Shown here piece after piece: positions 15,920 to 32,252 of a stretch of 32,252 nt of DNA (position 1 is its first letter; each line of letters begins with the position of its first letter). A program made the position numbers and the translations under genes. Source of the stretch: Verrucomicrobiaceae bacterium (GTDB lineage Bacteria > Verrucomicrobiota > Verrucomicrobiia > Chthoniobacterales > JAATET01); the NCBI GenBank assembly GCA_027488755.1, contig JAIYAZ010000039.1:1-32252 (forward strand). The letters run 5' to 3'. The notes beneath the pieces were generated by a model, which worked only from the letters and a program-made list of their open reading frames with translations, was not told the origin of the DNA and did not search any database.

Positions 15920-15993
15920 TCAGGGACGAACACGCACCGTTTGCGGGGGCACGTCCCTTCCTCAGCCTCTTTGGGTGAAAACCTGGTAGTGTC

Positions 15994-16158: not shown

Positions 16159-16170
16159 AACTTCAAAGAT

Positions 16171-16828: not shown

Positions 16829-16840
16829 TACTTTTTTTCA

Positions 16841-17293: not shown

Positions 17294-17874
17294 CGGATGA
17301 CCTTCCGCCCGGGTCAACGCCGCTTACTCCAGCCGAGGAAGCCGGACTCATTCCCAGCCACATCACGACTCGCGGGGAGTTAAACGAGCTGGAACAAGCG
17401 AACATCCTTGAGGCCACCAGTTGGTTGTTTACGCGGCGCGCCATTAAGAACGTCTCCGAGACGACCTTTTTGAAAGAACTCCACCGCCGCTTGTTTGGCC
17501 AGGTGTGGAGATGGGCCGGACAATACCGCAAAGAGGACCGCAACATCGGCGTCCATTGGCCGCAGATCAGCTATGAGGTGGAGAAGCTCTGCGCGGAGGT
17601 CAGCTACTGGATTGAAAATAGAACCTATTCGGCGGAAGAAATCGCGGTTCGATTCCATCACAAGCTAGTCTGGATCCATTGCTTTCCCAATGGGAACGGC
17701 CGCCACGCGCGACTTGCTGCCGATCTCCTAGTCGTCCAATTGCAGGGCGAGCGATTCACCTGGGGCAGCACCAGCCTCGACAACCCGAGCGACGTCCGTT
17801 CCCGATACATCGAATCGCTACGTAATGCGGACGAACACGATTACGATGCGCTTCTAAGGTTCGTTCGCACGTAG
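17290..17874 (+). CDS. Mobile mystery protein B, Fic-domain protein
   Basis: This 194-aa Fic-family protein matches the 'mobile mystery protein B' family, with the opening PPGSTPLTPAEEAGLIPSHI. Fic enzymes transfer AMP or related groups to hydroxyl side chains. The active-site motif HxFxxGNGRxxR is intact at 130-141 (H130, F132, G135, N136, G137, R138, R141). It probably acts as a toxin restrained by protein A, with which it is translationally coupled. Its 3' end coincides with the breakpoint of the truncated AbiEii gene on the other strand, which suggests that the A/B pair inserted there. Confidence 0.9.
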   Translation: MTDDLPPGSTPLTPAEEAGLIPSHITTRGELNELEQANILEATSWLFTRRAIKNVSETTFLKELHRRLFGQVWRWAGQYRKEDRNIGVHWPQISYEVEKLCAEVSYWIENRTYSAEEIAVRFHHKLVWIHCFPNGNGRHARLAADLLVVQLQGERFTWGSTSLDNPSDVRSRYIESLRNADEHDYDALLRFVRT

Positions 17875-18011
17875 CCTAGACGGTAGAGCCACCATTCCAA
17901 AGCGTAGGATTGCGCGAGGTCGTTGAAGGTCCGGCCCAAAGCCATGGCGGCATTCTTGAGTCGTTGGTGAACCGATGCCCCGACGTTCGTGAGTTGGCTC
18001 GTACGATCGCG
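17841..18011 (-). pseudogene. Truncated AbiEii-like nucleotidyltransferase toxin, N-terminal fragment
   Basis: A leftward frame reads TNVGASVHQRLKNAAM and FNDLAQSYALEWWLYRLGYV. This is the typical N-terminus of AbiEii/AbiGii-type toxins (ASVxxRLLN, then a YALERLLYRL block). After YRLGYV, at about 17880, homology ends and the frame runs into the 3' end of the mobile mystery B gene before stopping at 17841. The nucleotidyltransferase core is absent, so it cannot be a functional toxin. Confidence 0.6.
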
Positions 18012-18628
18012 TTCAGATAGGGAAGCATGATTTTTTCCACCCGGCATACCCGGGCAAAATCGAGGACAAGATCGAATCGTCGCCCGCGTTTGCGCGCGTA
18101 TGCGCGAAGCGCTTCCACGGCAATTTCGAGGCCGATCCGGCTTCTAAACTTGAAGACGTCCGCCAGCGTTTTCTCCGGGCTGAACGTCCGTACGGGGATT
18201 CCGTCCATGTGGCGCTCTTCAACTCCGGCAGCGAAGGTTTCCGGCGAGAATCGAAAGACCTCAATCGGGGGATAGGGAATTTTCGGCGTGTGCCTTCCGG
18301 ATGACAGGGCGATTTGCACGACGTGGGGGATTTGGCTGGTCAGTTCATGGATGGATAGTGCGCTGATCAGACAGACCACGGCGGAGGGAACGTGCTTGGC
18401 GACGATTACGAGATCCGGCTCGCTCATCGGGGGAAGGCCGGCGAGTCGGAAAAGGCCCCGACCAGCCGGCTGGATCACGCCGGAATCCCGCATGGCATAG
18501 AGCGTCCGCGGGTGAATTCCCGCCTCCAGCGCCTCGTGGGTACGCAGCATACCGCCTCTCTTTCGAAAGAATGCAACGGCGCTCTTGGTCGAATGGTTCA
18601 TGGTTCTCAGAACGGATAGATTTCGCAT
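17876..18628 (-). CDS. AbiEi-family type IV antitoxin, with abnormal C-terminal extension
   Basis: This AbiEi-like transcriptional regulator and antitoxin is about 250 aa from the ATG at 18628. The N-terminal winged helix includes LRTHEALEAGIHPRTLYAMR and GRGLFRLAG. The antitoxin core follows, with VICLISALSIHELT-type and RTFSPEKTLADVFKFR motifs. Family members normally end shortly after the MLPYLNAIV-like segment; here the frame continues for about 45 low-quality residues that overlap the toxin remnant in another frame. I infer loss of the native stop during decay. An inverted repeat, TAGAT-N6-ATCTA (18629-18644), directly before the start is a likely autoregulatory site. Because the cognate toxin is truncated, this is an orphan antitoxin. 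Confidence 0.75.
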   Translation of the reverse strand: MRNLSVLRTMNHSTKSAVAFFRKRGGMLRTHEALEAGIHPRTLYAMRDSGVIQPAGRGLFRLAGLPPMSEPDLVIVAKHVPSAVVCLISALSIHELTSQIPHVVQIALSSGRHTPKIPYPPIEVFRFSPETFAAGVEERHMDGIPVRTFSPEKTLADVFKFRSRIGLEIAVEALRAYARKRGRRFDLVLDFARVCRVEKIMLPYLNAIVRANSRTSGHRFTNDSRMPPWLWAGPSTTSRNPTLWNGGSTV

Positions 18629-18644
18629 TAGATACTCGCATCTA
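18629..18644. promoter_or_regulatory. Inverted repeat before AbiEi start, possible operator
   Basis: TAGAT (18629-18633) and ATCTA (18640-18644) form an inverted repeat directly adjacent to the AbiEi start codon. AbiEi antitoxins are known to repress their own promoter by binding inverted repeats, so the position is suggestive, but the arms are only 5 bp. Confidence 0.35.
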
Positions 18645-18752
18645 TAGCGGTTCTTATCCAGTTCTCTTTTCCAAACAGGAAAAGCCAGCCGGATTGGCGG
18701 GCCTGGGACTGATACTGAAGCGGAGGTTCTTCGACCCCTGTCAAAGGGTTTC

Positions 18753-18811
18753 CCTCCCCCCACCCCAGCCTAATCGCTCCTTTTGCCCAAATGGAGCGAT
18801 GCGATGGGGGA
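18753..18811. repeat. GC-rich hairpin element (dispersed family, copy E2)
   Basis: The inner stem ATCGCTCC/GGAGCGAT (18773-18780 with 18793-18800) is perfect. An outer stem pairs TCCCCC (from 18755) with GGGGGA (18806-18811). The left 33 bp (18753-18785) match 20672-20704 at 28 positions. It lies in the divergent spacer between the AbiEi antitoxin and the RelE/HigB-like toxin. Confidence 0.6.
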
Positions 18812-18898
18812 GATCGCGGTTCAGCGCACCGTGCCCGTGTCGATTATTCCCATCGAAGTCTACTTCGCGTCATTTTCATAGAGGACTAAAAATGCCTT

Positions 18899-19291
18899 GT
18901 GAATATTCCGTTTTGGAATATGCTGCGGAACGTGATTTGGCAGATCGAGCCATCAAGCCAATGGCCAAAGGACCAAAAATGGTATGAAAAGAAGCGACCG
19001 CGCGAAATCGCTGCCGTCCTCCACAATTTGCAACGGTATTTGGATCAACTCAACGCTGCACCCAACGCCCGTGTCGTCCAAGGAGGCTACCTGCATCACG
19101 AACCCCATGGCGTGGTCGCGGTAGACCAGAAAGGCGGGGGTGCGAACCTACCGGAGACGCGCCTCTACACGTTTGCCGACCCAGAAACAAAGACTCTCCA
19201 TCTTATCACGGTGGGCGACAAAAACAGCCAGTCCGAAGACATTAAATTTTGCTCCGACTTTGTGAAGAGTCTTAGAAAAAGCACGACGTAG
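18899..19291 (+). CDS. Putative RelE/HigB-like toxin
   Basis: This is a small basic protein of about 130 aa with a pattern I associate with toxin components paired with XRE antitoxins. Its visible parts are WYEKKRPREIAAVLHNLQRY, VVQGGYLHHEPHGVVAVDQK and LYTFADPETKTLHLITVGDK. The fold assignment is inferred from size, charge and the antitoxin gene 2 nt downstream. The only in-frame start near the proper place is GTG 18899, yet the good Shine-Dalgarno (GAGG, 18881-18884) is spaced for the ATG at 18892. That ATG opens a different 31-codon frame. Removing one T near 18897 would join ATG 18892 to the toxin frame, so a one-base frameshift is likely. Confidence 0.65.
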   Translation: MNIPFWNMLRNVIWQIEPSSQWPKDQKWYEKKRPREIAAVLHNLQRYLDQLNAAPNARVVQGGYLHHEPHGVVAVDQKGGGANLPETRLYTFADPETKTLHLITVGDKNSQSEDIKFCSDFVKSLRKSTT

Positions 19292-19293
19292 TT

Positions 19294-19893
19294 ATGAAAA
19301 CCGCACCAGCAAAAACCGAAGGAGCGAAACCCACCGGGCGCCGTTACGGCAGTGTTTCCGACCTTCTTGCGAAGGAGAAAGTCGGCGCACAAGTCCGAGC
19401 GGAAGTCGCTTCACTCAACTCCCAAACCGTTGTCATCCGACAACTCGTCTCCCTTCGCGCCAGCGCGGGTATGACTCAAACCGATCTCGCCAAGAAAATC
19501 GGGTGCACCCAGAGCCGAATCTCCAAAATCGAGGCATCCAAGGACGAAGACATCACCCTCGGGGTGATCCGTGATTACGTGCAGGCCACCGGGGCTCGGA
19601 TCAACCTGTTTTGCGGAAAGCCCGTGACCCATGTCGAGGCCGTGAAAAACCACGCATTGAGCATCCGTCGCCACTTGGAGGCACTCGCCAATCTCGCTCG
19701 GAAGCACGATGAATTGGAGCCGCACATTGAGAACTTTTTTGGCGAGGCGTTCTTCAATATCCTAAACATTCTCTCCGAATGCCAAGAGCGTCTGCCCAAG
19801 ACGCGGCAAGATTTCGAGTTACGGGTGACGTCTGTCGGCGACCATTCCCAGACAAAGCAAAAGTCACTCCGCGGGAAGCTTTGCCATGCCTGA
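19294..19893 (+). CDS. XRE-family antitoxin with C-terminal extension
   Basis: This 199-aa protein carries a helix-turn-helix of the XRE type at about 48-105 (IRQLVSLRASAGMTQTDLAK, then SRISKIEASKDEDITLGVIR). An unusual helical C-terminal region of about 90 residues follows. It starts 2 nt after the upstream toxin-like gene, the toxin-first order seen in higBA-type modules. It probably neutralises that protein and represses the operon. The C-terminal region resembles nothing I can name and may be the toxin-binding part. Confidence 0.75.
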   Translation: MKTAPAKTEGAKPTGRRYGSVSDLLAKEKVGAQVRAEVASLNSQTVVIRQLVSLRASAGMTQTDLAKKIGCTQSRISKIEASKDEDITLGVIRDYVQATGARINLFCGKPVTHVEAVKNHALSIRRHLEALANLARKHDELEPHIENFFGEAFFNILNILSECQERLPKTRQDFELRVTSVGDHSQTKQKSLRGKLCHA

Positions 19894-20035
19894 GTGAATC
19901 CTCGCCCGCGCTTGGCGGGGTCGGTCAAAGGAAAGTTGCGAATTTTCCCAGCCTCCTTGGGCGCAGGCTGCCCTTGGGTCAAGGCCCGCAAACGTGGCCC
20001 TTGACAAACGTGGTGCCGTGGGACTCGATGCCTTC

Positions 20036-20602
20036 ATGCGCACGCCCCGGTTTCTCACGGCCGTTCTCGGGCTTTTTCTCCTTGTCACCATTGGCGCCCA
20101 GGCGGCCGGAACGGTCTCTTTCAAAACCGACGAGATTACCGTTAGCCAGGAAGCGGGCGCGGTTCTGGTGACCGTGGTTTACAGCGGAACGCCGACCAAG
20201 AGCGGATTTACCGACGCATTCATTACCTCCATCGATGGGACGGCCATCGAGGAGAAGGATTTTGAATCCATCAACGGAACCTTTGGATCCGGGATCGCCG
20301 TGGATTTCGCCGAAACGCAGCAGGAGAGGACCATTCCCATCAAGATCACCTTAACGAAGTCGCGCCTCACAAAGTTCTTTAACCTCGTGCTGGCGGGATA
20401 CAACGGCTCAACCGCCGGAACGCCTTCAACCCTGAAGGTGACCGTTCTCGGTTGGACGCCGCCAAAACAGCTCTTGAACCGACTCGAGACGCTTCGAAAA
20501 CAGCTTAAGGCCGCGCAGCGAATCAGTGACCCCGTCGTTCGAGCGAAGACCACCAAGCGCCTCAAGCGGCAGATCAATGAGGTCCTTGCCCTCTTAAAAT
20601 AA
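20036..20602 (+). CDS. Secreted Calx-beta-like domain protein
   Basis: This 188-aa exported protein starts at ATG 20036. The 14-codon upstream extension is less likely because a signal peptide begins right at this ATG (RFLTAVLGLFLLVTIGAQAA, cleavage near residue 23). Residues about 24-135 resemble a Calx-beta motif: VSFKTDEITVSQEAGAVLVT, then FGSGIAVDFAETQQERTIPI. These are beta-sandwich calcium-binding repeats common in extracellular adhesion proteins; only one repeat is present. The last 50 residues are basic and helical (LLNRLETLRKQLKAAQRISD), possibly a coiled coil. A TTGACA at 20001-20006 could be a -35 box. The role is unknown. Confidence 0.7.
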   Translation: MRTPRFLTAVLGLFLLVTIGAQAAGTVSFKTDEITVSQEAGAVLVTVVYSGTPTKSGFTDAFITSIDGTAIEEKDFESINGTFGSGIAVDFAETQQERTIPIKITLTKSRLTKFFNLVLAGYNGSTAGTPSTLKVTVLGWTPPKQLLNRLETLRKQLKAAQRISDPVVRAKTTKRLKRQINEVLALLK

Positions 20603-20671
20603 AGCATCGCGACGCGAAGTTCGTCGGCTGGCGTGTTGGCGCCCGAAAGTCGGTATCTTCCGGGAGCAACG

Positions 20672-20730
20672 CCTCCCCCCGCCCCAGCCCAGTCGCCCCT
20701 TTCGTCGCGAAGGCGGGTCGGCGGCGGGGG
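20672..20730. repeat. GC-rich hairpin element (dispersed family, copy E3)
   Basis: CCCCCGCC (20676-20683) pairs with GGCGGGGG (20723-20730), with a weaker inner stem. The left 33 bp match copy E2 at 18753 in 28 of 33 positions, and all five differences are transitions. It lies directly downstream of the Calx-beta gene. Confidence 0.6.
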
Positions 20731-20823
20731 TTTACTCTGAAAAAAGTGGGAGGGGTCCAAGGAGGCGTTGACCGGGTCCCGGCCAAGGGAGGGGAAAACG
20801 GGGGTTTTACTCTGTAAAAGCGG
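20725..20823. repeat. Pair of 25-bp direct repeats with internal palindrome
   Basis: Copies at 20725-20749 and 20799-20823 share CGGGGGTTT, ACTCTG and AAAA blocks in the same order. The second contains a perfect palindrome, TTTTAC-TCT-GTAAAA (20805-20819). Start-to-start spacing is 74 bp, about seven helical turns. They could be recombinase or regulator binding sites. Confidence 0.5.
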
Positions 20824-20978
20824 CCCGCCGACATGTCACCCGAAACCGGGCCAAAGGGGGCCCCATTAAACGGGGGTTGGACCACTTTCGGATTTTGAAG
20901 CGGAGGATTTAGGGGGGAGATACGTTCCCTGCCCCCCTCCCCCGCTTTTGGAAAATGCCCCGCCGGTATCTCCGGGGC

Positions 20979-21572
20979 ATGAACTGTGGAGCCCGCCCGT
21001 TTGAAGGAACCGAAAAGTCCCAAATCCTCGCCGCCCTCACCGGCTATAGCGCCCAGCGCGACCGGGCGCTGATCCAATTGGGGGTGTATTCGGGCCTGCG
21101 CGTGAGTTCGCTTTTGGCGCTCAAGGTGGGCGACGTCATTAACGGCCGGCGGTTCCACCCGCGGCTCCGCGTCGCCCGCCGAAACCTCAAGGGCAAACAC
21201 GCCGGCCTCGACATCCCCCTGCACCCGGTCGCCAAAATCGCCCTCGGACGCTGGCTGGTTGAGCGCCGCTCCCGGGGCGAACGGCTTTTGCCGACGGCGC
21301 CCCTGTTTCCGTCCCGCCAGGGCAAGGCCCAGCCGCTCTCGCGCCGCCGCGCCCGCGAAATCATCCAGGAGGCCGCCGCCCGCGCGGGGTTGCCGCCGGG
21401 GATCTCGACCCATTCGTGGCGGAAGACGTTTGCCGGCCGGCTCTACGAGGCGACCGGCCACAACATCCTGCTCGTGTCCCGCGCGCTGAACCATCGGCAA
21501 CTTGCGACTTCGATCTCCTACTTGCGGTGGAAGCTCGACGAAAAAGCCGACGCCGCGATCCTGTCGCTGTAG
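20979..21572 (+). CDS. Single-domain tyrosine recombinase (complete catalytic set)
   Basis: This is a 197-aa paralogue of the recombinase at 6838, with the same length and very similar sequence throughout. It consists only of the catalytic domain. Visible catalytic residues are R41 (SGLRVSS), K71 or K73 (NLKGKHAG), H145 and R148 (THSWRK), H172 (LNHRQ) and Y181 (YLRW). Unlike the first copy it keeps the box-II histidine, so it should be active. An in-frame ATG at 20955 exists, but comparison with the other copy shows the upstream part is not conserved as protein. Preceding GC-rich repeats may be its target or regulatory sites. A FimB-like inversion or integration role is possible; the substrate is unknown. 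Confidence 0.88.
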   Translation: MNCGARPFEGTEKSQILAALTGYSAQRDRALIQLGVYSGLRVSSLLALKVGDVINGRRFHPRLRVARRNLKGKHAGLDIPLHPVAKIALGRWLVERRSRGERLLPTAPLFPSRQGKAQPLSRRRAREIIQEAAARAGLPPGISTHSWRKTFAGRLYEATGHNILLVSRALNHRQLATSISYLRWKLDEKADAAILSL

Positions 21573-22248
21573 GTGGCCCGTCGGGCGGCTCCGCCTCGAA
21601 AAACGAAACCCGCCGGAATCCCTGGGGAGCAGAACGCGGATCCGAACTCACCAGCCGGCGGCGGGGAAACCGAGCAATCCCAAGACCGAGCGCGACCGAA
21701 ACCGGCGGCGAAGGCACGGGACAAACGGACGGTCGTCGTCCGCGCGCGACTCCGCCGGCCGGGGTCATTTGACAGACCCGAGGTCGGGTCAATACCCTTC
21801 CAAGGAGGTGTGCCTACGCCCCGCCCTGCGGCGGGCGGTGGGGGCCAGTCGACGGGCCATTTTCGCCCGGCCCGGGCAGGAAAAACCGCGGCGAGCGGCG
21901 CAGATCCGAGCCCGCCACCCCCCACGTATCGGCGACTCTTTTTGAAGCGAACGGGGGCCGGATGGAACTGCATTTCCAACGGCTTTTCGGGGGTCGGTTG
22001 ACGCGCCCTACCCCGGGTCGATATACTGTTTACCCTCTTTTTTATTTGTTTCCGTATAGTTAATGCTCAGCGAGCATTCGGGGGTGGTTCAAGGGCAAGC
22101 GGCGCCACCGCACCCGGGAGGACAGAAATACCTCCATCACTCTGATGGAAAGACATTTACGTGGGTTGTTTGCCCAATTTTAGCGGCGGCGATGCCCGCC
22201 GCCGGGTGCGTCGGTTGACGCGCAGGGGCCGGATCTGAACTCTCTAAT
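21573..22248. other. GC-rich spacer between small recombinase and the giant-recombinase operon
   Basis: There is no gene I trust in these 676 bp. A GTG-started frame at 21573-22001 is Pro/Arg/Ala-rich low complexity and probably spurious. The region has a C-rich/G-rich hairpin at about 21821-21845 and a 14-bp direct repeat, GTCGGTTGACGCGC, at 21993 and 22210. It also has hairpins CCATCA-CTC-TGATGG (22134-22148) and GCGGCGG...CCGCCGC (about 22182-22202). A T-rich, promoter-like patch lies at 22030-22065. The start of the 372-aa gene follows. Confidence 0.45.
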
Positions 22249-23367
22249 ATGACCACGAATCCCAGCAGTAACTCGCCCGTCACCGCCACCGACGCCATTG
22301 TCGGCGCATCGAAGTTCGAAATCAACCGACTCAAACTCCGCGAGCACGTTGGCTCCGCGTGGCTGGTGCTCCCCGATCTCGAGCGCCGGTTTTTTGAGCT
22401 TTTCTACTTCGCCCTCCCCGAGGGCGGGCGCCCGCAAACAATCGTGGATTTTATCCTCGACTGCCACCTCTCGGCCGGGAAGCGACTGTCGGCAGAACAA
22501 CATTCCGACCGCAAGAAGGCACTCTGTGCCGAACTCGGTCTCACACCTCGGCAGTATAAGTCGATTGTGAGCGGCCTGGGGATGATGATCCGGGCCGCCG
22601 AACTGAGATACGCCACCATCGTCGATATCCTCCGGGACCTGCCCCTCGCTTCCCACGACGCCGAGGAGGCGGTTAATGCACTAAAGACGGCCTTGCCTAA
22701 CCTGCGGGCGAACGGCAGTCAGGACCTGGAGAAGCCTCAGGCGCTCGCCGCTGCCGTGAAGGCACAACCCGCCAGTCCGGCAATCCAGCTTCTGCTCGAT
22801 GCAATCGAGGCTGCCGCACGGCCGATTGATTTTACGGTGCGCCCGAAACCGAAATCGTCGCGCGACGATCAACGGCAGACAGTCGTCCCGAGCCGCCCCG
22901 AACTCTGGGTCGAAAATCTTGAAAGGCAGATTAATCGCTGCGAACTAACCCAAGGTCTGCTGCCGCTTGCGTCGAGCTTCGGCGCCAACGCGACTGTATC
23001 AGTTCGGCTTTGCGAGAAGGCGGAAATCGTCCTTGCCTCGCTTCGCGGCATCATCTCCGAAACCCTGATCGCCTTGGAGGCCGTTGATCCGGAGCTGCCC
23101 GCAGCCCTCGGCAAGGGCCTCGCGCTGTCCGTTGCGGTTGCGCCTGAGCGGCCCGACCGCTGGTCAATCCAGTGGATGATGAGCATTCCGGTTCGCCTGC
23201 CGCTGCGGCTGCGGGCCTACCTGTGCAAGCACTTCAAGTTCGTCGGCGCAAAAAATTTCAGGTTCCGCGCGCCGGGCGACGCCCCCTGTCGCCAGGCCTC
23301 CGAGGCCGCCGATCCGATGCCGATGGAAATGACCGACGGATCCTCGGACCTCGACGCCGCCGCCTAG
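22249..23367 (+). CDS. Unknown protein, partner of the giant recombinase (372 aa)
   Basis: This 372-aa cytoplasmic protein belongs to no family I recognise. The N-terminal third is helical (INRLKLREHVGSAWLVLPDL) and includes a segment that could form a DNA-binding helix pair (CAELGLTPRQYKSIVSGLGM, about 88-108). The centre is Ala-rich (KTALPNLRANGSQDLEKPQ), and a folded C-terminal domain lies near 220-345. The next gene starts 6 nt after its stop, so the two are one operon and probably act together. By analogy with other mobile-element operons it might be a DNA-binding accessory factor for the recombinase, which is inference from position only. The ATG at 22249 has no strong ribosome-binding site. 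Confidence 0.75.
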   Translation: MTTNPSSNSPVTATDAIVGASKFEINRLKLREHVGSAWLVLPDLERRFFELFYFALPEGGRPQTIVDFILDCHLSAGKRLSAEQHSDRKKALCAELGLTPRQYKSIVSGLGMMIRAAELRYATIVDILRDLPLASHDAEEAVNALKTALPNLRANGSQDLEKPQALAAAVKAQPASPAIQLLLDAIEAAARPIDFTVRPKPKSSRDDQRQTVVPSRPELWVENLERQINRCELTQGLLPLASSFGANATVSVRLCEKAEIVLASLRGIISETLIALEAVDPELPAALGKGLALSVAVAPERPDRWSIQWMMSIPVRLPLRLRAYLCKHFKFVGAKNFRFRAPGDAPCRQASEAADPMPMEMTDGSSDLDAAA

Positions 23368-23373
23368 CCCGCC

Positions 23374-26300
23374 ATGGTCATCCAACTCGATAAGCCCTTG
23401 CGGTCCGGCCGGAATCCCCGAAAGCCAAAAGCTTTCGCGGCCATTCTGAGCCTCGTCGCCCCGGACCACGGCTACAACTTTGATCGGATCGCCGACCTTC
23501 CCCCAACTCGAAAGAGAATCCGGTATAAAGATGATCCGGCGGAGGCCGTGATTGATACCTTGTCGGCCAACCTGAGCTCGTGGGAGCCAGTGCTGCAACG
23601 GCCCAACTCCATCGCCGTTTTGCGCCGACTGTTCGAGCGCCGCAAGTTCGCTGACCGCGAATCCCTCCAGGACCAAGAAGCGGCATCCCGGGTCTGCCGC
23701 CGCCTCTTCAATCTGGTCGGGGCCGGTCACATCGACGACCCGAGGAACCTTGATCAAATCGAGGCACGAGTCAGGGCCTCCGATGGGCTGCCGGGGCTTT
23801 CGCCTTTTGGCCCCGACGAGCACTTCCATGCCGCGACCGGCGAGTATCTCAGCCGTTTCCCGGATGACGTGCAGCGATACTGGCGGGATGCGCCATGGCC
23901 CTATGAGCTCAACAAAGGCGAGCCCGACCTGGATCCCGCGGACGCGCCGATACGGGATCCCGCGGAGGATCGCCGATTTTGCCTCGCCGATTCGGCTCTC
24001 TACCGCGATCAGGCCCGCACCACGGAGTCCTACGCGCTCAACCCGCGCAATCTGCATCTCGCGGCAACGCTGGTCACACTGCTCGACGACGGTGACCCCG
24101 CCGAAATGCCCGCTCGCAAAATCGCGAGTTACGCCGCGTTCGGGCTTTGCTTGGGCAGCGGCATGAAAATCGAGAAGTGCCTCGAGGTTGTCCTTCGTCC
24201 CGGCGCCGAAGGCGCCGCGGATGCGCCCGCCCGCTACGACGCCGAGACGGGGTTGGTGTGGGTTCAGATTGGCACCTACCGCCACGCCCTCTCGGGGCGG
24301 ATCCCCCGCCAGGATGTGCCGGTGCCGCTGCCGGACTTCGCCCGCAAGTATGTTGATGCCGTCGTGCGTTCGGGCGCCGACTCGATCGCGATGGCCCTTA
24401 AAAATGCCCTCGGGGGCAAACCCCGGAAAAACTGGACACCGCTCAACAGTTTGAGGGCCGACGCGCCGAAATGGGAAAACATCTCCTGCGGGAGCGACTG
24501 CCGTCGTCTCCACATGGCCGTCGCCTACATTGCGGTGGTCCAAGCGGACCTGCCGCCGGCTTGGTTGGGCCTCATCCGCGGCGATCACGTCAACCCGTAC
24601 CGGAGCGACAGCAGTTACATCGGCTATTCGCGAGCGGAGCACTGCAAAAACCTCCTCACCTTCCACCAAGAACTCGCCCGTTTTTCCGGACGGCCCTACC
24701 ACATATCGGTCTCGGCGATCCCCAAGATCCCGCCGCTCGCGGCCGAAGTCCCGGACGGAGCAAACGTTTTTTCCGCGTTTGTCGAGCGGGCCGAAGCCGC
24801 CACCACCCAATCCCAGCTTTGGCGGCTCGCAGACGTCATCACGCTCCAAGCTCTCGGGACGAGGCAATTTCTGGAGCAACCCCATGCTCCGTCGCTTCTT
24901 GCCGGCGACGGGACGATTGCGCTGCTCGGAGACAAGAGCGTAAACGGCGAGAAAGTCCGCGAGCGCCCGGTTGCCGTCTGCGAGCCGGTGATGGCTGCCA
25001 TGAGATTGGTCGGGGCGAATTGCGGCGACACCGATCTCAACCGGGAGGTTGGCTACCGCGATGCCAAGACCGGCGAGATGGTGACCTACCGCGATGTGCA
25101 AGACCCCGAGGCGGAAGGCGATCGATGGGTGGTTTCCCCACGGAATGCGTTGCGGAAGGTGTATATCAGCGAGTCGAGCAAGTTCTCCCCCTACCTCAGC
25201 CAGGAAAACTGCGGCCACGGCACGTCCACGACCGCCGCGAGCGGTCCGTTCGGTCTGATTCCGATCGATCATCACTTCGCGCAATCCCGCCGAATTGCCG
25301 AAGCCATCCTGGAAAAATGCGGGTTCGAGCGCGCGGTAACGGCCTACCGCGCCGCAAAAGAACGACTCGGAGCAGGCGACATTCCGAGCGTGACATCGTC
25401 TCGCACCGAGTTGCTTGAGTGCGAGGATGCGAGCGGGATCTTCGCGGTTCCGACCGTTCGCGAGCTTGAGCGCGTGCAGCAGGCGCGCGAGGCGATCCGC
25501 TCCACGCCGGTCTCCGCGTTTACCCTGCCCGACGTTCGCAAAGCGCTTTTTGTCCTCCTTACGATGGGTGGAGTCCTGCCGGTGGAATACCTTCGTCGCG
25601 GAGATTTCCGCCGCTACCTTTGCCCGAACTCGTTTTTTTGGCAGGGGGGCAACCTCTGTCTCGATACCCCCATTCGCCAACGCGACCGCAAAATGGGCAA
25701 GATTCCGCTTCGGATCCCGCCGGACCTTGCACCCGCCATCCTAGACCTGCTTGCCCGCTTCAATTCCCTCTCACCCGGCTCGCAGTCCAGCCGCGCCGAA
25801 ATCTTCCGAGCGCGTGACCTTCAGCAGCGGCCGGTCGCCCAATTTCTGCGTCGATTTTGCCCCGAACTTCGCGGCACCCGCATCGCCGACATATCCACCT
25901 CAATCAACAGTAGCGGAAACTGGCTCTGCCTCCTCCGGCAACCCAGCGCGATCGTGTGCGGCTTACTCAACAAACTGATGTTTCCCCTCGACTACGTCAG
26001 TCTTCCGAGCCTTTTGGATTTGTCTGAGGGAGACTTCCTTTCGGTCACGGGCGGCCCCTGGATTTGCCCCTACACGCAGTCGGCAGCGGCAAAAAAACGG
26101 GAGCGGCTTGCCATCCCCATCCTTGATCTGTGCCGCGGTATCAAGGAGCCGCGAAGGGGGCGGCCGATCGTCATTCCACGGTACATCCCGCGCGACGACA
26201 ATGGGACCCCCTGCCCGCCGGAATCGTGGACCGACGAGGTGTGGATTAAGTTCCTTCGGGAATTCCATCCCGAAGCCTCTCCCGAACAACTCAAGATCTG

Positions 26301-27327
26301 GCTTGAGCGCCGCGGCCTCGGTGAGATGGCCTCGAGGGCCAGCACGTTTTGTCGCGGCATTCACGCGGCGCGGGCGGCCTCGCTCGGCTCGCCCGTCCGC
26401 CTCCTCAAATCCTCCCAGGCTCCCGCGTTTTTTACTCGCCTCAGACCGCACCTCACCCGCGAGCAGATGATCATCTGTCTGCTTTGCTACCTGTTCGGCG
26501 TGCGTTCCGCCGAGGCGGCTTCGTATCTCGTGGGAGACCTCCGCTGCATCGGCGATGCCATTTCGCTCATCGACCGGGGAACAAAAACGCGCCGAGCAAA
26601 CCGTGTGATCGACGGCCATCTTTTCATTGGTGACGATGCCAATTCCCAACTCCTGCTCCGCGAACTCCAGTCGCACCTCGAAGCCCTGCGGCGCGAACGC
26701 AAGAGGCGCGATGGACTGCAAGAGCCGTTGATTCCCCCCAAGAAGAGAGGAGCGGTCGCCAATAAAATCAATGCCCACCTTCGGCGCCTCAATGCCGAAG
26801 ATACCGCAGCACTTCCCGACCATCTCAAGTGTCTTGCCGGCCGCTTCAGTTTGCATTCGTTCCGCCACGCCTGCGCAGTTCGGGTGGTCACGGAAGTGGT
26901 CCGCACCGCTTACAAATCCAACTATCTGAACAAACTCTGCAGCGTAGCCCGCCAACTGGGACACACTTTGGGGTGTTTGATTGGCACTTACGTTGGCGGT
27001 GCACTTATCCTGATGCCGCTCCCGGAGGAACCGATAATTGAGTTTGCTCAACCAACGTCCGCAGAGGATGGGTTGCCCGAAGCCGAGTTGGCTCCCGTTG
27101 AATCAACCCCCATAAGTTTACCTCTTGGAGATTACCTGCCGATTTTCCCGCTGGAACCGCCCACAGAAAAAAAACGGCCAGGATCTTCGAAGGTTTCTCA
27201 AAACTGCCGACGTAAGACCGTTCCGGCTGGGCAAAAATCCGATGGATCTGGCCGGAGCAGTCGCAAGAAGAACACACGGTGTCTCGACTTGCCAGGTCAG
27301 ATCTACATTGCTTATATTTCTCCGTGA
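23374..27327 (+). CDS. Giant protein (1317 aa) with C-terminal tyrosine recombinase domain
   Basis: This protein is roughly three to four times larger than ordinary integrases. Its C-terminus (about 1020-1215) has the complete tyrosine recombinase signature: R1044 (FGVRSAE), K1071 (GTKTRR), H1161 and R1164 (LHSFRHA), H1197 (QLGHTLG) and Y1206 (GTYVG). Two earlier segments may be degenerate repeats of the same fold without catalytic residues. One is near 710-870 (LLTMGGVLPVEYLRRGDFR, IPLRIPPDLAPAI). A weaker one is near 245-440 (ASYAAFGLCLGSGMKIEKCL). The first 230 residues are novel. It is translated 6 nt after the 372-aa gene. About 120 residues follow the tyrosine; the last 70 or so are low complexity and basic, so the end may have been altered. 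It lies directly upstream of the attC array. A mobilisation role is likely; its target site is unknown. Confidence 0.82.
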   Translation: MVIQLDKPLRSGRNPRKPKAFAAILSLVAPDHGYNFDRIADLPPTRKRIRYKDDPAEAVIDTLSANLSSWEPVLQRPNSIAVLRRLFERRKFADRESLQDQEAASRVCRRLFNLVGAGHIDDPRNLDQIEARVRASDGLPGLSPFGPDEHFHAATGEYLSRFPDDVQRYWRDAPWPYELNKGEPDLDPADAPIRDPAEDRRFCLADSALYRDQARTTESYALNPRNLHLAATLVTLLDDGDPAEMPARKIASYAAFGLCLGSGMKIEKCLEVVLRPGAEGAADAPARYDAETGLVWVQIGTYRHALSGRIPRQDVPVPLPDFARKYVDAVVRSGADSIAMALKNALGGKPRKNWTPLNSLRADAPKWENISCGSDCRRLHMAVAYIAVVQADLPPAWLGLIRGDHVNPYRSDSSYIGYSRAEHCKNLLTFHQELARFSGRPYHISVSAIPKIPPLAAEVPDGANVFSAFVERAEAATTQSQLWRLADVITLQALGTRQFLEQPHAPSLLAGDGTIALLGDKSVNGEKVRERPVAVCEPVMAAMRLVGANCGDTDLNREVGYRDAKTGEMVTYRDVQDPEAEGDRWVVSPRNALRKVYISESSKFSPYLSQENCGHGTSTTAASGPFGLIPIDHHFAQSRRIAEAILEKCGFERAVTAYRAAKERLGAGDIPSVTSSRTELLECEDASGIFAVPTVRELERVQQAREAIRSTPVSAFTLPDVRKALFVLLTMGGVLPVEYLRRGDFRRYLCPNSFFWQGGNLCLDTPIRQRDRKMGKIPLRIPPDLAPAILDLLARFNSLSPGSQSSRAEIFRARDLQQRPVAQFLRRFCPELRGTRIADISTSINSSGNWLCLLRQPSAIVCGLLNKLMFPLDYVSLPSLLDLSEGDFLSVTGGPWICPYTQSAAAKKRERLAIPILDLCRGIKEPRRGRPIVIPRYIPRDDNGTPCPPESWTDEVWIKFLREFHPEASPEQLKIWLERRGLGEMASRASTFCRGIHAARAASLGSPVRLLKSSQAPAFFTRLRPHLTREQMIICLLCYLFGVRSAEAASYLVGDLRCIGDAISLIDRGTKTRRANRVIDGHLFIGDDANSQLLLRELQSHLEALRRERKRRDGLQEPLIPPKKRGAVANKINAHLRRLNAEDTAALPDHLKCLAGRFSLHSFRHACAVRVVTEVVRTAYKSNYLNKLCSVARQLGHTLGCLIGTYVGGALILMPLPEEPIIEFAQPTSAEDGLPEAELAPVESTPISLPLGDYLPIFPLEPPTEKKRPGSSKVSQNCRRKTVPAGQKSDGSGRSSRKKNTRCLDLPGQIYIAYISP

Positions 27328-27683
27328 ACTTGAAGTCTCGATCGCTTCGACGACCAAGGGCGGCAGCATCCCGCGACATTGCAAGTAGTGTCGCTCACTG
27401 CATCAACATTTCGATTTAAGTACACACCTTACTGTTGTTCTCATCCGAGCTGTCCCGCTGATTTCCTTGTCGCACCTCTACCTCCGGCAAAAGCTCGAAC
27501 GTGCGATAGGTTCTCGACACAGGCTCGTTGTTTTCCAAGAAGGTCCGCCCCTCAATCTCCTCGAGGTATCCACCTACAACAAGCTCAGTCTATAAAGTAG
27601 ATCACAACGCTCAAGCGTTGGCCTACTTTTGTCTATTTAACCATACCCCTTTCCCTCCAATTTACTGTTAGGCTAAAATCAAA
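27328..27683. other. Spacer between the giant recombinase and the first cassette gene
   Basis: Composition drops sharply to AT-rich here. No credible gene is present. It contains an intrinsic-terminator-like hairpin (27595-27631) and, just before the first cassette ORF, a consensus integron core site GTTAGGC (27667-27673). No matching left-hand inverse core (GCCTAAC) is seen in the preceding 130 bp. Confidence 0.5.
27595..27631 (+). terminator. Intrinsic terminator-like hairpin
   Basis: AAAGTAG (27595-27601) pairs with CTACTTT (27624-27630), and CAACGCT/AGCGTTG pair perfectly inside, followed by T-rich sequence. It lies about 270 bp beyond the giant recombinase stop and just before the cassette array, so it probably ends read-through from the recombinase operon. 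Symmetry means it could also act on the other strand. Confidence 0.6.
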
Positions 27684-28328
27684 ATGCTTGTTGTCGCAAC
27701 TATCTGTTTGGCTCTCGGCTTTTTGCTCGGATACTCGCGCAGCTATTACATTCACAAACGCAACCTCGGGGAGGCGCTTGTCATAGAGCAAATTCGCAAA
27801 GTCGCGAAAATGCCGTTTCACTTGATCAACAATGTCACTCTTCCAACTCAAAGTGGATCGACACAAATTGATCACATATTAGTTAATAGATTCGGAATTT
27901 TTGTTATTGAAACAAAACACTATAAAGGTTGGATTTTCGGAAACATGCACAGCCCACGCTGGACTCAGGTTATCTATAGATTCAAAACTTCATTTAGAAA
28001 TCCGATCCTACAAAATCACGGACACATTCTAGCACTCAGAGCGATTTTCACGCTTCCGGATGAAGCCTTCTATAACTTGGTCATCTTTTCAGGAGGCGCT
28101 GTTTTTAAGTCGGATCTCGGTCCCGACGTAATTGTCGCCGCTCAAATACAATCATACTTGAATGAAGATCGGGAAGTAATATTTGACGAGCGTAAACTCG
28201 CCTACATTGTTGGCAGAATTGAGATGACTCGTCTTTCACGCTCGACTGAGACGGACGAGTATCATGTTAACTCGCTTGTCCGTAAGCTCAAAAATGCAGC
28301 TCAGCAAGACGCTGCAGCTAACCCCTAG
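27684..28328 (+). CDS. Cassette gene: membrane-anchored NERD nuclease-like protein
   Basis: This 214-aa protein has one N-terminal membrane helix (about 1-20, LVVATICLALGFLLGY). A NERD domain (about 27-145) follows, with the nuclease-like pattern QIDHILV (D63), FVIETKHYKG (E76, K78) and a later WTQ. NERD domains are thought to cleave nucleic acid; anchoring at the membrane could place it to meet incoming DNA, which is speculation. Its last codons (QDAAANP) and stop are supplied by the attC site. The start lies 10 nt after the integron core site GTTAGGC. It is the first cassette of the array. The helicase at 2187 also has a NERD domain, but the two proteins are otherwise unlike. Confidence 0.82.
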   Translation: MLVVATICLALGFLLGYSRSYYIHKRNLGEALVIEQIRKVAKMPFHLINNVTLPTQSGSTQIDHILVNRFGIFVIETKHYKGWIFGNMHSPRWTQVIYRFKTSFRNPILQNHGHILALRAIFTLPDEAFYNLVIFSGGAVFKSDLGPDVIVAAQIQSYLNEDREVIFDERKLAYIVGRIEMTRLSRSTETDEYHVNSLVRKLKNAAQQDAAANP

Positions 28329-28427
28329 GCGCACACTGGACGCTATTGTTCGGACCGATCGGCCTTTCCTTAACCCCTCACCTTACGCATGGCCTCCCGT
28401 TCGGGGTAGCTGAGCTTGGCGTTCGGC
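28299..28427 (+). other. attC recombination site 1
   Basis: The inverse core is degraded (GCTCAGC at 28299, versus GCCGAAC in the others). The left arm GCTGCAGCTAACCCC and right arm GGGGTAGCTGAGC pair with the extra G characteristic of attC. The right core GTTCGGC (28421-28427) fits the GTTRRRY-like consensus loosely, with a C in one purine position. It contains the stop of the NERD cassette gene. Confidence 0.82.
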
Positions 28428-28455
28428 TATAACAATCAATCCATCCTAAATTACT

Positions 28456-28755
28456 ATGTCCGTCAAAATCTCAGTCAAATACCCAGAAGCTTCAGAATCA
28501 ACACCTGACACAGACCTTTCCATACTAAAGTCTGTTGAAGAGATTATTAAAGATAATGGAGTCAGAATTTTTTGCTCCACATCAAATTACACTTGGCGGC
28601 TCTCAAAAAGTTATGATTGGGACAGTTTTTATATTTTAGAAAAGGACTATGACAACACTCAGATCATCGAAATAGGGATAAGAGAAATTCGACGAATTGG
28701 ACCTGAGAAATTCAAGGATCGCTTGATTGAAAGATCGCATCAAGATTCACAATGA
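28456..28755 (+). CDS. Cassette gene: hypothetical acidic protein (99 aa)
   Basis: This 99-aa cytoplasmic protein is of unknown function. It is acidic and predicted mixed alpha/beta, with a central beta-rich part (GVRIFCSTSNYTWRLSKSYD) and a polar helical end (RRIGPEKFKDRLIERSHQDS). It fills the second cassette alone, and its TGA is immediately followed by attC 2. The start ATG lies 29 nt after the core of attC 1. No family is recognised, as is usual for integron cassettes. Confidence 0.7.
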   Translation: MSVKISVKYPEASESTPDTDLSILKSVEEIIKDNGVRIFCSTSNYTWRLSKSYDWDSFYILEKDYDNTQIIEIGIREIRRIGPEKFKDRLIERSHQDSQ

Positions 28756-28884
28756 GCCGAACAAGGCGCTGCAGCTAACCCCTAGACGCGCACTGGGCGG
28801 TTTCGCTTCGACCGACCGGCTTTTCCCTCACCCCTATCTTTACGCTTAGTCGCCCGTTCGGGTTAGCTGAGCTTGACGTTCGGT
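28756..28884 (+). other. attC recombination site 2
   Basis: This is the most complete copy. The inverse core GCCGAAC (28756-28762) pairs with GTTCGGT (28878-28884). The arms GCTGCAGCTAACC and GGTTAGCTGAGC pair perfectly apart from the extrahelical G. Total length is 129 bp. Confidence 0.88.
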
Positions 28885-28910
28885 TATAAAAATATTTGAA
28901 CATCCAGCTT

Positions 28911-29135
28911 ATGGGAGTCATCGATAACACGACACATTCATTTCGTTGTCCAAACTGCCAAAAAACAGAAATAGTCAAAATTCTAGATAAAGGTTCTGTT
29001 TGGAGCGCTTCATGGTGGCAAGCAGGCCCAATATTGAATGATTTCAATGTCATATGGACAGGGGGAGGTAGAACCGAGCCAAAAATTGAATCTGCAATCT
29101 GCAAAATATGCGGCACATACGTCACAGTAACATAA
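28911..29135 (+). CDS. Cassette gene: small zinc-ribbon protein (74 aa)
   Basis: Two CxxC knuckles, CPNC at about residues 14-17 and CKIC near 65-68, frame a segment rich in Trp and Gly. This suggests one zinc-binding ribbon of the kind used for nucleic-acid or protein binding. I chose the ATG at 28911; a TTG at 28896 would add five residues. It is the first of two genes in the third cassette and lies 26 nt after attC 2. The function is unknown. Confidence 0.65.
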   Translation: MGVIDNTTHSFRCPNCQKTEIVKILDKGSVWSASWWQAGPILNDFNVIWTGGGRTEPKIESAICKICGTYVTVT

Positions 29136-29201
29136 CAATTGAAGCAAATTCTCCGACATAATAATTAGACATTCATAACCACAAGCAAGTCCTGGCATTT
29201 T

Positions 29202-29705
29202 ATGAAAACTAAAAGTCTCACCTCCGTAATCTCTCTCTGTTTATTTCTTTTTGTGCAGGAATGCCTTTCGCAGAGCTATGACATAACGATTCACGACGCT
29301 AATGCTCCCACGAGAAAAGAGAAGGATTCCCAGCGACTTATAGATGCTACTAAAACCTATTCTGATAGCATGCAACAGTTATCAAAATCAAAAATGGAGC
29401 TTGAAGAACATCAAGCACGAATGCGGCTAATGAAGTTGGAGGAAGAACAAAAAAGGAAGGAATTAGGCATCAGTTCTTCAGCGACAGCTGAAAAACAAAT
29501 AGTCATTTCCGAGAGAGAGTTCCTCCAAATTATTACAGAGTTTGTAAAATACCGAGCCGTAATCGAAGGCTTGAAACGCGACTATCCCACTGAGAAAGCG
29601 AACATCGAAAAGAGAATGATTCAAGCGAATGATGGTGCCGCAGATTTCGCAAAGTCTACCCTAGATAAATGGGTTGCCGAACAAGGCGCTGCAGCTAACC
29701 CCTAG
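29202..29705 (+). CDS. Cassette gene: secreted coiled-coil protein
   Basis: This 167-aa protein has a signal peptide (LTSVISLCLFLFVQECLSQS, cleavage near residue 23). A long charged helical region (about 45-100, QLSKSKMELEEHQARMRLMK) is probably a coiled coil, and a second helical segment lies near 108-160. It would be periplasmic. The last residues (EQGAAANP) and stop are encoded by attC 3, the same tail as in the NERD cassette protein. No family is recognised. It follows the zinc-ribbon gene inside the same cassette with a 66-nt gap. Confidence 0.72.
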   Translation: MKTKSLTSVISLCLFLFVQECLSQSYDITIHDANAPTRKEKDSQRLIDATKTYSDSMQQLSKSKMELEEHQARMRLMKLEEEQKRKELGISSSATAEKQIVISEREFLQIITEFVKYRAVIEGLKRDYPTEKANIEKRMIQANDGAADFAKSTLDKWVAEQGAAANP

Positions 29706-29811
29706 ACGCGCACCGACCTATTTTGTTTCGACTGACCGGCCTTTCCCTCACCCCTCTCCTTACACTTGGTCACCCGTTCGGGGTAGCTGAGATTGACACT
29801 ATCCGTTAAAA
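29676..29811 (+). other. attC recombination site 3 with altered right core
   Basis: The inverse core GCCGAAC (29676-29682) and the left arm are intact. The right arm continues GGGGTAGCTGAGATTGAC, but the core GTTCGGY is not at the expected place. A GTTAAAA seven bases after GATTGAC (29805-29811) is the best candidate. It may recombine poorly. It supplies the end of the coiled-coil gene and almost directly abuts the next start codon. Confidence 0.75.
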
Positions 29812-29814
29812 AAC

Positions 29815-30312
29815 ATGAACCACATTATCCAGACTTGTCTCGCTGTCCTCCTTTCCACCAGCATGTGCGCCTGCAACATTACGAGCGGTTCGCGGATTGT
29901 AGTAGGAACGACTCGTGCAGCCATCGCCCCTGAGAACGTTAGAGTTTATCTGCACCCGCCAGCCAAATACGAAGAAATTGCCATCCTTAACGCAACCAGC
30001 AAAAACGCCTTTGCTAGCGATCAAAGTCTTACTGATTCAGTGCTACTACAAATGAAGAAAGATGCAGCCAAATTAGGTGCGAATGGCATTCTGCTTTCAG
30101 GCGTCGGCACACAACAGATTGGCTCTGTAGGGCAGTCATTTGGAAGTGCATCGGCATATACGACCGCATCGGCTTCAGCTTATCGATACGGAAATTCCGT
30201 CAACGCTTATGGCACCGGAACAACTAATGTTTATGGAAGCGGAACCACGTTCAATACTCCAATGTTTCAGAAGGTCTCTGGTGGTATGGCAATATTCGTC
30301 CCCCAGGAATGA
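29815..30312 (+). CDS. Cassette gene: probable lipoprotein, YdgI/RcsF-like small-domain candidate
   Basis: This 165-aa exported protein has an N-terminal hydrophobic segment (IIQTCLAVLLSTSMCAC). The Cys could be lipidated, although the lipobox is not canonical. The core (about 45-100, YEEIAILNATSKNAFASDQS, then AAKLGANGILLSGVG) is like small envelope domains that start with a 'KYEEIG' strand and end 'LGANAIL'; the family is uncertain. A Ser/Ala/Tyr/Gly-rich low-complexity stretch follows (about 108-145). The start lies 3 nt after attC 3, with no room for a ribosome-binding site. The next gene overlaps by 4 nt, an operon within one cassette. Confidence 0.65.
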   Translation: MNHIIQTCLAVLLSTSMCACNITSGSRIVVGTTRAAIAPENVRVYLHPPAKYEEIAILNATSKNAFASDQSLTDSVLLQMKKDAAKLGANGILLSGVGTQQIGSVGQSFGSASAYTTASASAYRYGNSVNAYGTGTTNVYGSGTTFNTPMFQKVSGGMAIFVPQE

Positions 30313-30851
30313 GTGAGTCGGATAATGTAATTAATCGATTCTCCGCACTTCTTTTGCTGGCCGCCTTGATGTCGTGTCAGGCACGGCGTCCCTCGGCTGA
30401 TTTTCCATCTTCCTACACTTACAATTCAGATCTAGCAACCACTTCCATCATACCAGATCCAGTTCCGACACCTCCTTCTCCACCAACAGTCTCTTCAAGA
30501 TTCCAAGCATATACACGCATCAATCCGAACTATCACTATCCAGCGATTGCCCCGACACCAGACGATTTAACATGGGAGATGCGTCGGCTACGACGCAATG
30601 CCGACCAATATGACTCCGATGAGTATCGCAGAAGACTGCGGCGATTACAGAATGATACGGAGGACATGTCCGCCCGTGAACAAATGCAGGCAAGAGATTC
30701 TAACGTCTATGACGATGCAGCAGATCAGCTAAGAAGAATGCGACGCGATATCGATTTCGATCCACCCTCCTACTATCGAGACAGTGACGACTATGACCGC
30801 AGATTGAAGCGCATGGAGTCAGATATTGAGCTCGATTCCATACTCGAGTAA
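30309..30851 (+). CDS. Cassette gene: lipoprotein with charged arginine/aspartate-rich repeats
   Basis: This 180-aa protein has a signal sequence and a credible lipobox (LLLAALMSC, lipidated Cys about residue 23). A Pro/Ser-rich linker (about 40-70) follows. The charged C-terminus carries three loose repeats of the form YDSDEYRRRLRRL, YDDAADQLRRMRRD and YDRRLKRMESD. The repeats suggest a coiled or calcium/peptide-binding structure, but the function is unknown. The start overlaps the preceding gene's stop (ATGA). The stop lies immediately before attC 4. Confidence 0.7.
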   Translation: MSESDNVINRFSALLLLAALMSCQARRPSADFPSSYTYNSDLATTSIIPDPVPTPPSPPTVSSRFQAYTRINPNYHYPAIAPTPDDLTWEMRRLRRNADQYDSDEYRRRLRRLQNDTEDMSAREQMQARDSNVYDDAADQLRRMRRDIDFDPPSYYRDSDDYDRRLKRMESDIELDSILE

Positions 30852-30965
30852 GCCGAACAAGTCGCTGCAGCTAACCCCTAGACGCACACCGGCCGATCGT
30901 GCTTCGACCGACCGGCTTTTCCCTCACCCCTCTCCTTACGCTTGGTCGCCCGTTCGGGGTAGCTG
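30852..30965 (+). other. attC recombination site 4, truncated by IS insertion
   Basis: The inverse core GCCGAAC (30852-30858), the left arm GCTGCAGCTAACCCC and the central part match the other sites. The right arm stops after GGGGTAGCTG at 30965, where the IS inverted repeat begins. The remaining arm and core would lie beyond the IS, outside this window, if the insertion was simple. Confidence 0.82.
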
Positions 30966-31035
30966 TGGCCTGCCCCCGGAAAAGAGGACGGTTCAAAAGT
31001 GGAGTTTTGCAGGTTAGAACGAAAGCAGAACGAGC

Positions 31036-31302: not shown

Positions 31303-32213
31303 GCCCGTCAGCGCGACGACGGGCGGTAAAGATGAGCATGGAAGAGGGATGGAGCGGATCGACGGCGGCGGCATGCCGGGCGTTGGGCTTGGCGCGATCG
31401 AGCTTTTACCGGGAAAGCCGGGAGGCCGTGGAGAGCCGGCGGGTTCGCAAGGAAGTCGTGGAACTCAGCGGCAAGCACCCGCGCTACGGCTACCGGCGGA
31501 TCACGGCGCTGCTGCGCCGTGACGGGTTCGCGGTCAACCCGAAGCGGGTAGCGCGCCTGCGGCGCGAGGAGGGCTTGAAGGTCAGCAAGCGTCAACGGCG
31601 CATGCGCCGGCTGGGAACCTCGACCTCGGAGCGGCAGCGGGCCGAGCGCCCGCGGCAGGTCTGGAGCTGGGACTTCGTAGAGGACCAGACCGAAGCGGGC
31701 ACCCGGTTCCGCATCCTCACGTTGATCGACGAGCACACCCGCGAGTGCCTGGCCACGCACGCGGCGTGGTCGATCCGGGCCGTGGATGTCATCGGGGTCG
31801 TAGAGGTGGCCATCGCCCGTTACGGAGCCCCGGAGCACATCCGCAGCGATAACGGGCCGGAGTTTATCGCCTACGCGATCCAGGACTGGCTGGCCGCTCA
31901 ATCCATCAAGACGATCTACATCAAGCCGGGCTCGCCTTGGGAGAACGGCCACATCGAAAGCTTCCACGACAAGCTGCGCGACGAGTGCCTCAACCGGGAG
32001 CTCTTCGCCAGCCTGGCCGAAGCCCGCGTCATCCTTGAAGGCTGGCGCGTGGAATACAACACTCTCCGTCCGCATAGCTCCCTGGGATACCAAACCCCGG
32101 GCGAGTTCGCGGCGGCGTGCAAGTCCCGCCTCCAGTCGCCCTCCGGGCTCCTTCCGTCGGGACTTGCTTCAAACCCACAAACCAACCAAACATCACAACC
32201 AATCCCCGCTTAA
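31296..32213 (+). CDS. IS3-family transposase OrfB (DDE integrase core)
   Basis: The catalytic part of the transposase lies in the -1 frame relative to OrfA. Visible are an HTH_21-like segment (HPRYGYRRITALLRRDG) and the DDE triad: D in WSWDFVEDQT, D in IRSDNGPEF and E in ENGHIESFHDKLRDE. The usual IS3 ending (YNTLRPHSSLGYQTPGEF) follows. I give the start as the GTG at 31296, just after the slippery run; production as an OrfAB fusion by frameshifting is more likely than independent initiation. The frame appears intact. Confidence 0.9.
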   Translation: MVSPSARRRAVKMSMEEGWSGSTAAACRALGLARSSFYRESREAVESRRVRKEVVELSGKHPRYGYRRITALLRRDGFAVNPKRVARLRREEGLKVSKRQRRMRRLGTSTSERQRAERPRQVWSWDFVEDQTEAGTRFRILTLIDEHTRECLATHAAWSIRAVDVIGVVEVAIARYGAPEHIRSDNGPEFIAYAIQDWLAAQSIKTIYIKPGSPWENGHIESFHDKLRDECLNRELFASLAEARVILEGWRVEYNTLRPHSSLGYQTPGEFAAACKSRLQSPSGLLPSGLASNPQTNQTSQPIPA

Positions 32214-32252
32214 CCTCTACTTACAAACTGTCCCACCTTCGGGGGCAGGCCA

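Follow-up and report, generated by a model that had tools for sequence, protein, structure and literature searches.

Tyrosine recombinases (YRs) normally act as four separate subunits in the synapse; what restricts activity to two of these four at any one time is a central question. RIT (RitA, RitB, RitC) and Tn554 (TnpA, TnpB, TnpC) are elements with several YRs. No YR is known to us that combines several catalytic folds in a single chain; a literature search for such a protein found none, which is weak evidence. YR elements that need pseudo-YR partners include GInt (PMC5385486), the strand-biased circularizing integrative elements (SE; PMC10214605) and TnsF/Tsy (PMC10293859). In GInt, reported from one Verrucomicrobia genome, recombination needed all four genes (those of GinA, GinB, GinC and GinD), and GinC lacks the catalytic residues (PMC5385486). 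SE encode IntA, Tfp, IntB and Srap, of which Tfp is a pseudo-YR (PMC10214605). TnsF of Tn6022 is an inactivated protein of 498 aa with N-terminal zinc fingers and tandem core-binding domains (PMC10293859). That a YR can carry core-binding domains in tandem is already known from TnsF (PMC10293859) and from RitA of RIT elements, which has two (PMC8138268). Archetype RIT recombinases have 315–410 aa, each with a catalytic tyrosine (PMC10214605).

The window analyzed here is the whole stretch of 32,252 nucleotides, an entire contig (C97) of a genome of 3.48 Mb in 169 contigs. The sequence-only reading had described a pair of ORFs of 372 and 1317 aa, separated by 6 nt. The ORF list bears out these coordinates, with both genes on the + strand. 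We named the upstream protein P0002 and the giant recombinase P0001; all features are collected in Table 1. A codon model was trained on the other genes of the window. By codon preference, the frame of P0002 and P0001 beats all other frames from 22249 to about 27000, and an antisense ORF of 838 aa scores below it. Both are coding genes, and P0002 is probably translated together with P0001. No Pfam or NCBIfam family was found at a meaningful level for P0001. P0002 had been described as a partner of no recognized family, and indeed Pfam, NCBIfam, PHROG and PADLOC are all silent on it; a search of 197 related genomes gave P0002 no homologue with a meaningful E-value.

Table 1. Features of the gene pair, its domains and its surroundings (window coordinates unless a locus is named)
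Feature	Coordinates	Strand	Basis
P0002, 372-aa partner, family unrecognized	22249..23367	+	ORF with ATG start, codon test
P0001, 1317-aa giant tyrosine recombinase	23374..27327	+	ORF with ATG start, codon test, YR profiles, homologue
Segment c1, residues 222-448, putative degenerate YR catalytic domain	24037..24717	+	Profile match, low-confidence model
Segment c2, residues 452-685, possible degenerate YR catalytic domain	24727..25428	+	Profile match; weakest by structure
Segment c3, residues 698-915, candidate degenerate YR catalytic domain (first half)	25465..26118	+	Cre/XerH structural match
Helical bundle, residues 905-1000, probable core-binding domain	26086..26373	+	AF2 model; assignment inferred
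Segment c4, residues 1012-1222, YR catalytic domain, intact by sequence	26407..27039	+	YR profiles, PDB sequence matches
Catalytic R1044 codon	26503..26505	+	Present in sequence, conserved in homologue
Nucleophile Y1206 codon	26989..26991	+	Present in sequence, conserved in homologue
Tail, residues 1223-1317	27040..27324	+	Missing from homologue, negative codon score
Sigma-70-like promoter TTGACG-18-TATACT, upstream of operon	21998..22027	+	Consensus match only
14-bp exact direct repeat GTCGGTTGACGCGC, copy 1	21993..22006	+	Exact match
14-bp exact direct repeat GTCGGTTGACGCGC, copy 2	22210..22223	+	Exact match
Terminator-like hairpin after operon	27605..27620	+	Consensus match only
attI-like motif (CACCCCATTCAATCCAATATACTGTT type)	L049:1-26; L153:5537; L154:13528; L156:13186; L157:6856; L159:4357; L161:4870		

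Compared with the described systems, P0001 resembles GInt, by description, in that several YR-type proteins cooperate there and one is catalytically dead. GInt differs in having separate genes in another order, where P0001 is a single chain. At our locus one short YR gene lies 677 bp upstream, followed by P0002 and P0001; three adjacent integrase-type genes with a ginD were not found. SE are alike in pairing an ordinary YR with a large one and adding a pseudo-YR (Tfp), but have four separate genes. The order intA-tfp-intB-srap is absent from the neighborhood of P0001, and the SRAP gene of the window belongs to an SOS cassette at a distance of 14 kb. RIT and Tn554 have multiple YRs in common with the putative modules of P0001, but in separate genes; no three adjacent YR genes with terminal inverted repeats were found at P0001. 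TnsF/Tsy are alike in placing a YR-derived protein beside Tn7-like genes, as is the case for the only homologue found for P0001 (locus L168), whereas TnsF has 498 aa and is inactivated and P0001 has 1317 aa with an intact active site. When the TnsF/Tsy operon (TniQ, or YRec with HTH) was looked for, the window had none, and L168 had TnsB-like and TnsC-like genes with no TniQ recognized. The nearest solved folds are Cre, by the sequence profile of c4, and both Cre and XerH by the structure of c3. These are single-module proteins of about 340–360 aa, whereas P0001 is about four times the usual YR length.

The C-terminal part of P0001 carries the evidence for its family. The residues R1044, K1071, H1161, R1164, H1197 and Y1206 are present in order and with normal spacing, so the claimed R-K-H-R-H-Y set was recovered in full at its positions. 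Against a YR profile built from phage and host YRs, residues 1015-1215 scored 17.1 bits (best of 1000 shuffles, 6.2). PHROG matches for residues 991-1219 were to integrases (phrog_1, E 3.9e-5; phrog_216, E 1.3e-3). A two-sequence profile of P0001 and its homologue matched the YR profile with E 4.5e-12 in a profile–profile comparison, and its PDB sequence matches at E<=10 were YRs in 13 of 13 cases (XerC-like, Cre and the Cre-derived Tre). The segment scores below detection by Pfam PF00589. By its residues and profile matches, the module at the C-terminus is a YR catalytic domain that has stayed intact. Thus the claim of a YR domain ending an oversized protein holds: an active-looking c4 stands at the end of a chain several times the normal length. 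Ahead of it, residues 905-1000 were modeled by AF2 as four helices (pLDDT about 70) with no clear YR match; this bundle is the probable core-binding domain of the active module. Behind it, the tail of residues 1223-1317 has a non-coding-like composition with a negative codon score, and the GC content drops from about 0.60 to 0.52. The tail is probably a frame extension, because the homologue, in which these residues are missing, stops shortly past the catalytic tyrosine.

The homologue was the sole one found in a sample of 384 genomes of the class (G604:C99, a 1310-codon open frame; 26% identity over 723-996, E 2.8e-8). It has 1307 aa (L168:9686-13609) and is collinear with P0001, with a blastp E of 2e-11 over 589-1222 and a full-alignment identity of about 23%. 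Its active site reads RK-Y-RHY, a Y replacing H1161. No second copy of P0001 was found in 213 genomes of the same order, none in 197 relatives and none in 388 genomes of the phylum. Collections of plasmids and phages, IMG/VR and GTDB also gave none, within the sensitivity of the searches. No further copy of the homologue was detected in 207 relatives of its genome. Searches with the homologue or the two-row profile added no member, nor did degenerate motif probes against IMG/VR or GTDB (artificial alignments with invented rows, used as probes only). Several candidates were rejected. The weak matches L023-L025, L027 and L030 are by sequence a TonB receptor, a LOG-like protein, RecQ, an aminopeptidase and a glycosyltransferase. 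L026 is an ordinary XerC/D and L171 an ordinary XerC/D-like YR, and the frame of L170 looks antisense. From the one homologue and these searches, the giant form is real, old and very rare, with two members known. Since these two giants are diverged and collinear, the architecture is old and selected and not an assembly accident; an intact collinear homologue at such identity requires long-term selection.

The surroundings of the homologue were analyzed in the same way. A 247-aa ORF overlaps its start by 4 nt, but shows no detectable sequence relationship to P0002 (score 35, with 90 of 300 shuffles as good). The sequence-only reading had proposed profile searches for a conserved pair in other genomes; at the sole other giant locus known, conservation of the partner in sequence was not found. 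A TOTE-type primase-helicase lies upstream of the homologue (L168:6135-8651). On the same strand, further genes begin 102 bp downstream: the first two are TnsB-like (TnsB_0_V-K, E 3e-17) and, with an AAA protein, of TnsC/TniB type, and an unrecognized protein of 291 aa follows. No TnsA was found in the examined part of L168, and L168 contains no relative of the short YR of the window (20955-21572). A second, degraded TnsB-like fragment lies near the homologue in an island with repeated pieces; this island is a mosaic.

The long region upstream of c4 was tested for degenerate copies of the YR fold, which had been proposed for residues of about 245-440 and 710-870. Two-sequence profiles of three segments (c1 taken as 225-445, c2 as 450-680 and c3 as 695-920) were compared with the YR profile. 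For c1 the E-value was 0.012 (equaled by 2 of 400 column shuffles), for c2 0.038 (10 of 400) and for c3 0.13 (68 of 400, not significant alone). Combined, the column shuffles gave a Fisher p of about 0.002; these p-values are somewhat optimistic, because the segment limits were set by eye, before testing. The alignments of c1-c3 are in register on the YR motifs (box I, the strand-to-helix region and LRK...GH, the last also for c2 by itself), and an N-terminal control was unlike them. An alignment of c1 with phage YRs was rejected, its second half being misaligned. Residues 690-1222 were then modeled by AF2 from the two family sequences only, with no YR sequence in the input. The pLDDT was about 58 for residues 690-797 and low outside these and the helical bundle; overall it was low in both models, 35 for residues 1-690 and 43 for 690-1222. 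Model residues 694-806 aligned with Cre (1kbu_A 133-247; Z 4.6, 98 aa, rmsd 3.8) and XerH (5jk0_B 171-278; Z 4.1, 99 aa), Z values that are middling by the structure-alignment tool's own warning. They ranked 3 and 8 among 147 chains re-aligned from Foldseek's best, with unrelated helical chains at similar Z. In this model the match is unlikely to have arisen by chance, because two YRs were hit in the right register and the model was built without YR sequences. In the poor single-sequence model of 1-690, c1 has the order helix-helix-three strands-helix-helix-helix, as in c4; this order of helices and strands is common to c1, c3 and c4 in the low-confidence AF2 models. Fold searches with the 1-690 model (pLDDT 35, single sequence) gave noise only, and a viral structure library returned nothing meaningful. 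Structure prediction, proposed as the check on the duplication, therefore answered in part: 694-806 partly matches Cre and XerH, and the 1-690 model is too poor to use. Both proposed copies have moderate backing, strongest by profile for 225-445 and by structure for 694-806, but the segments do not match each other in profile comparison. A third segment at 452-685, beyond the two first proposed, is a weaker candidate.

The flanks of the operon yielded few signals. One sigma-70-like promoter was found where 0.2 were expected in shuffles, and two terminator-like hairpins against 1.2 expected. The repeat GTCGGTTGACGCGC has only two exact copies in the window, both before the operon. No repeats flanking the operon as possible att sites were found, and an Rfam search gave no match. 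Element ends, which were to be sought by comparing strains, were not established: the congeners share no alignable flanks, and neither ends of an element nor att sites or an empty site came to light. Within window 14000-31000, the DNA matches to three congeners are confined to attC and cassette-array sequences. Two YRs of about 200 aa (6838-7431 and 20955-21572) are 82% identical and consist of the catalytic domain only. We rejected the one at 20955-21572 as a third component of the operon, its paralogue at 6838-7431 having no giant partner. Directly after the short YR gene at 6838-7431, an SOS mutagenesis cassette (7432-14065) encodes SRAP, LexA, ImuA-like and ImuB-like proteins and DnaE2. 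Other genes of the window are a HipA toxin gene (14615-15919), HTH, Fic (PDC-S04-like, E 5e-24) and AbiEi-type genes (16808-18763), and a helicase (2187-3938) with N-terminal similarity to reverse-transcriptase-defence NERD-helicases (RTasNERD-Hel, E 7e-18). On contig C98 of the same genome, a YR gene (13668-14195) is broken by TGA and TAG and is probably a pseudogene.

The operon had been placed directly before an attC array. The array is indeed next door, but the end of P0001 is 342 bp from the attI-like cassette boundary (27669) and about 970 bp from the first attC (28298). It starts at an attI-like motif of the CACCCCATTCAATCCAATATACTGTT type (window 27644-27669, roughly 26 nt). The same motif adjoins the true IntI of the genome (L049:1-26 on C52). 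Among the array heads of congeners it has intI upstream at two loci and unrelated genes at four, and these congeners carry attC arrays without the giant gene. The adjacency is not evidence of a link, and a functional connection between operon and array is not supported. We rejected the array as part of the operon; it has its own attI-like head. The most natural reading is that an ordinary integron array begins at this place by coincidence. As a side observation, each genus has several attC arrays headed by the motif, and intI adjoins only some of these heads; this may bear on the origin of intI-less arrays. The integron integrase in L049 (81-1731 of C52) is 550 aa long, about 236 of them in an N-terminal extension, and those of congeners at the same kind of site have 462 and 479 aa. 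The contig end at window 32134-32252 is identical to C98:1-119; therefore, an IS3-type element interrupts the attC array, which continues in C98 with four more attC copies.

Several explanations of the giant protein have to be weighed against each other. P0001 could act as an ordinary YR through a single catalytic module, with a very long N-terminus of unrelated DNA- or protein-binding domains in which the copies have been over-read. Such a protein would account for the failure of the generic YR profile to detect c1-c3 in single-sequence searches, for the absence of PHROG and Pfam matches to them and for the background scores obtained when c1-c4 were compared mutually by profile. It is less easily reconciled with the Cre and XerH matches at 694-806, the profile matches in register and the helix/strand order shared by c1, c3 and c4, and we consider it unlikely. 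Degenerate YR modules are the preferred reading: that one or more lie upstream in P0001 is likely, and that all of c1, c2 and c3 are such modules is a tentative extension. A decayed or chimeric gene without function is scarcely credible. The non-coding composition of the tail and the extreme rarity of the gene would fit decay, but 1317 uninterrupted codons with coding bias, a complete active site and the intact collinear homologue at about 23% identity do not.

Two further explanations draw on the neighbors. The TnsB-like and TnsC/TniB-like genes 102 bp downstream of the homologue, together with the precedent of TnsF as a YR-derived selector (PMC10293859), raise the idea that P0001 serves a Tn7-like transposon as a co-integrate resolvase or a TnsF-like target selector. 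This is improbable, as the window has no Tn7-like genes, and the adjacency is seen at one locus only, may be accidental and stands in an island that the degraded second TnsB-like piece marks as a mosaic. It is less probable still that P0001 belongs to the neighboring integron, for example as an alternative integrase at the attI-like site 27644-27669, to which the closeness of the attI-like head and attC cassettes might point. The genome has a bona fide IntI (C52:790-1731, 432 bits) with its own attI of the same motif, and P0001 gave no match to the integron-integrase model TIGR02249. Furthermore, congeners without the giant gene have arrays headed by this motif next to unrelated genes, and no such neighbor was recognized in the examined stretch of the genome of the homologue.

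We return to the degenerate-module reading and to what such a protein might do. The distribution of P0001 is accessory: it is absent from the other genomes of the order examined and from three congeners. It is about an even chance that P0001 carries out strand exchange for a rare accessory element, probably a mobile one, and that its degenerate modules are architectural or targeting parts. The active C-terminal module would break and rejoin DNA via Y1206, and the degenerate modules would hold the DNA arms or the target site. P0002 might be an accessory DNA-binding or directionality factor, as its position suggests. One P0001 chain would then supply what GInt, SE or Tn554-type elements split over two or three YR or YR-like proteins. 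A new type of mobile-element integrase, as proposed from the sequence, is a reasonable if tentative reading. The fullest version is possible, at somewhat less than even chances: one polypeptide with four YR catalytic folds, three of them inactivated, would be much of a synapse in one chain, belonging to a rare mobile element. In other words, and with the same reserve, the active subunit and its pseudo-enzyme partners may be joined in one polypeptide.

If this is true, the linkage of one active module to several dead ones in a natural chain would set their order and stoichiometry, and would make the question of half-of-subunits activity directly testable. P0001 would then stand at the far end of a trend that GInt, SE and TnsF display, in which pseudo-recombinases were turned into architectural or targeting factors.
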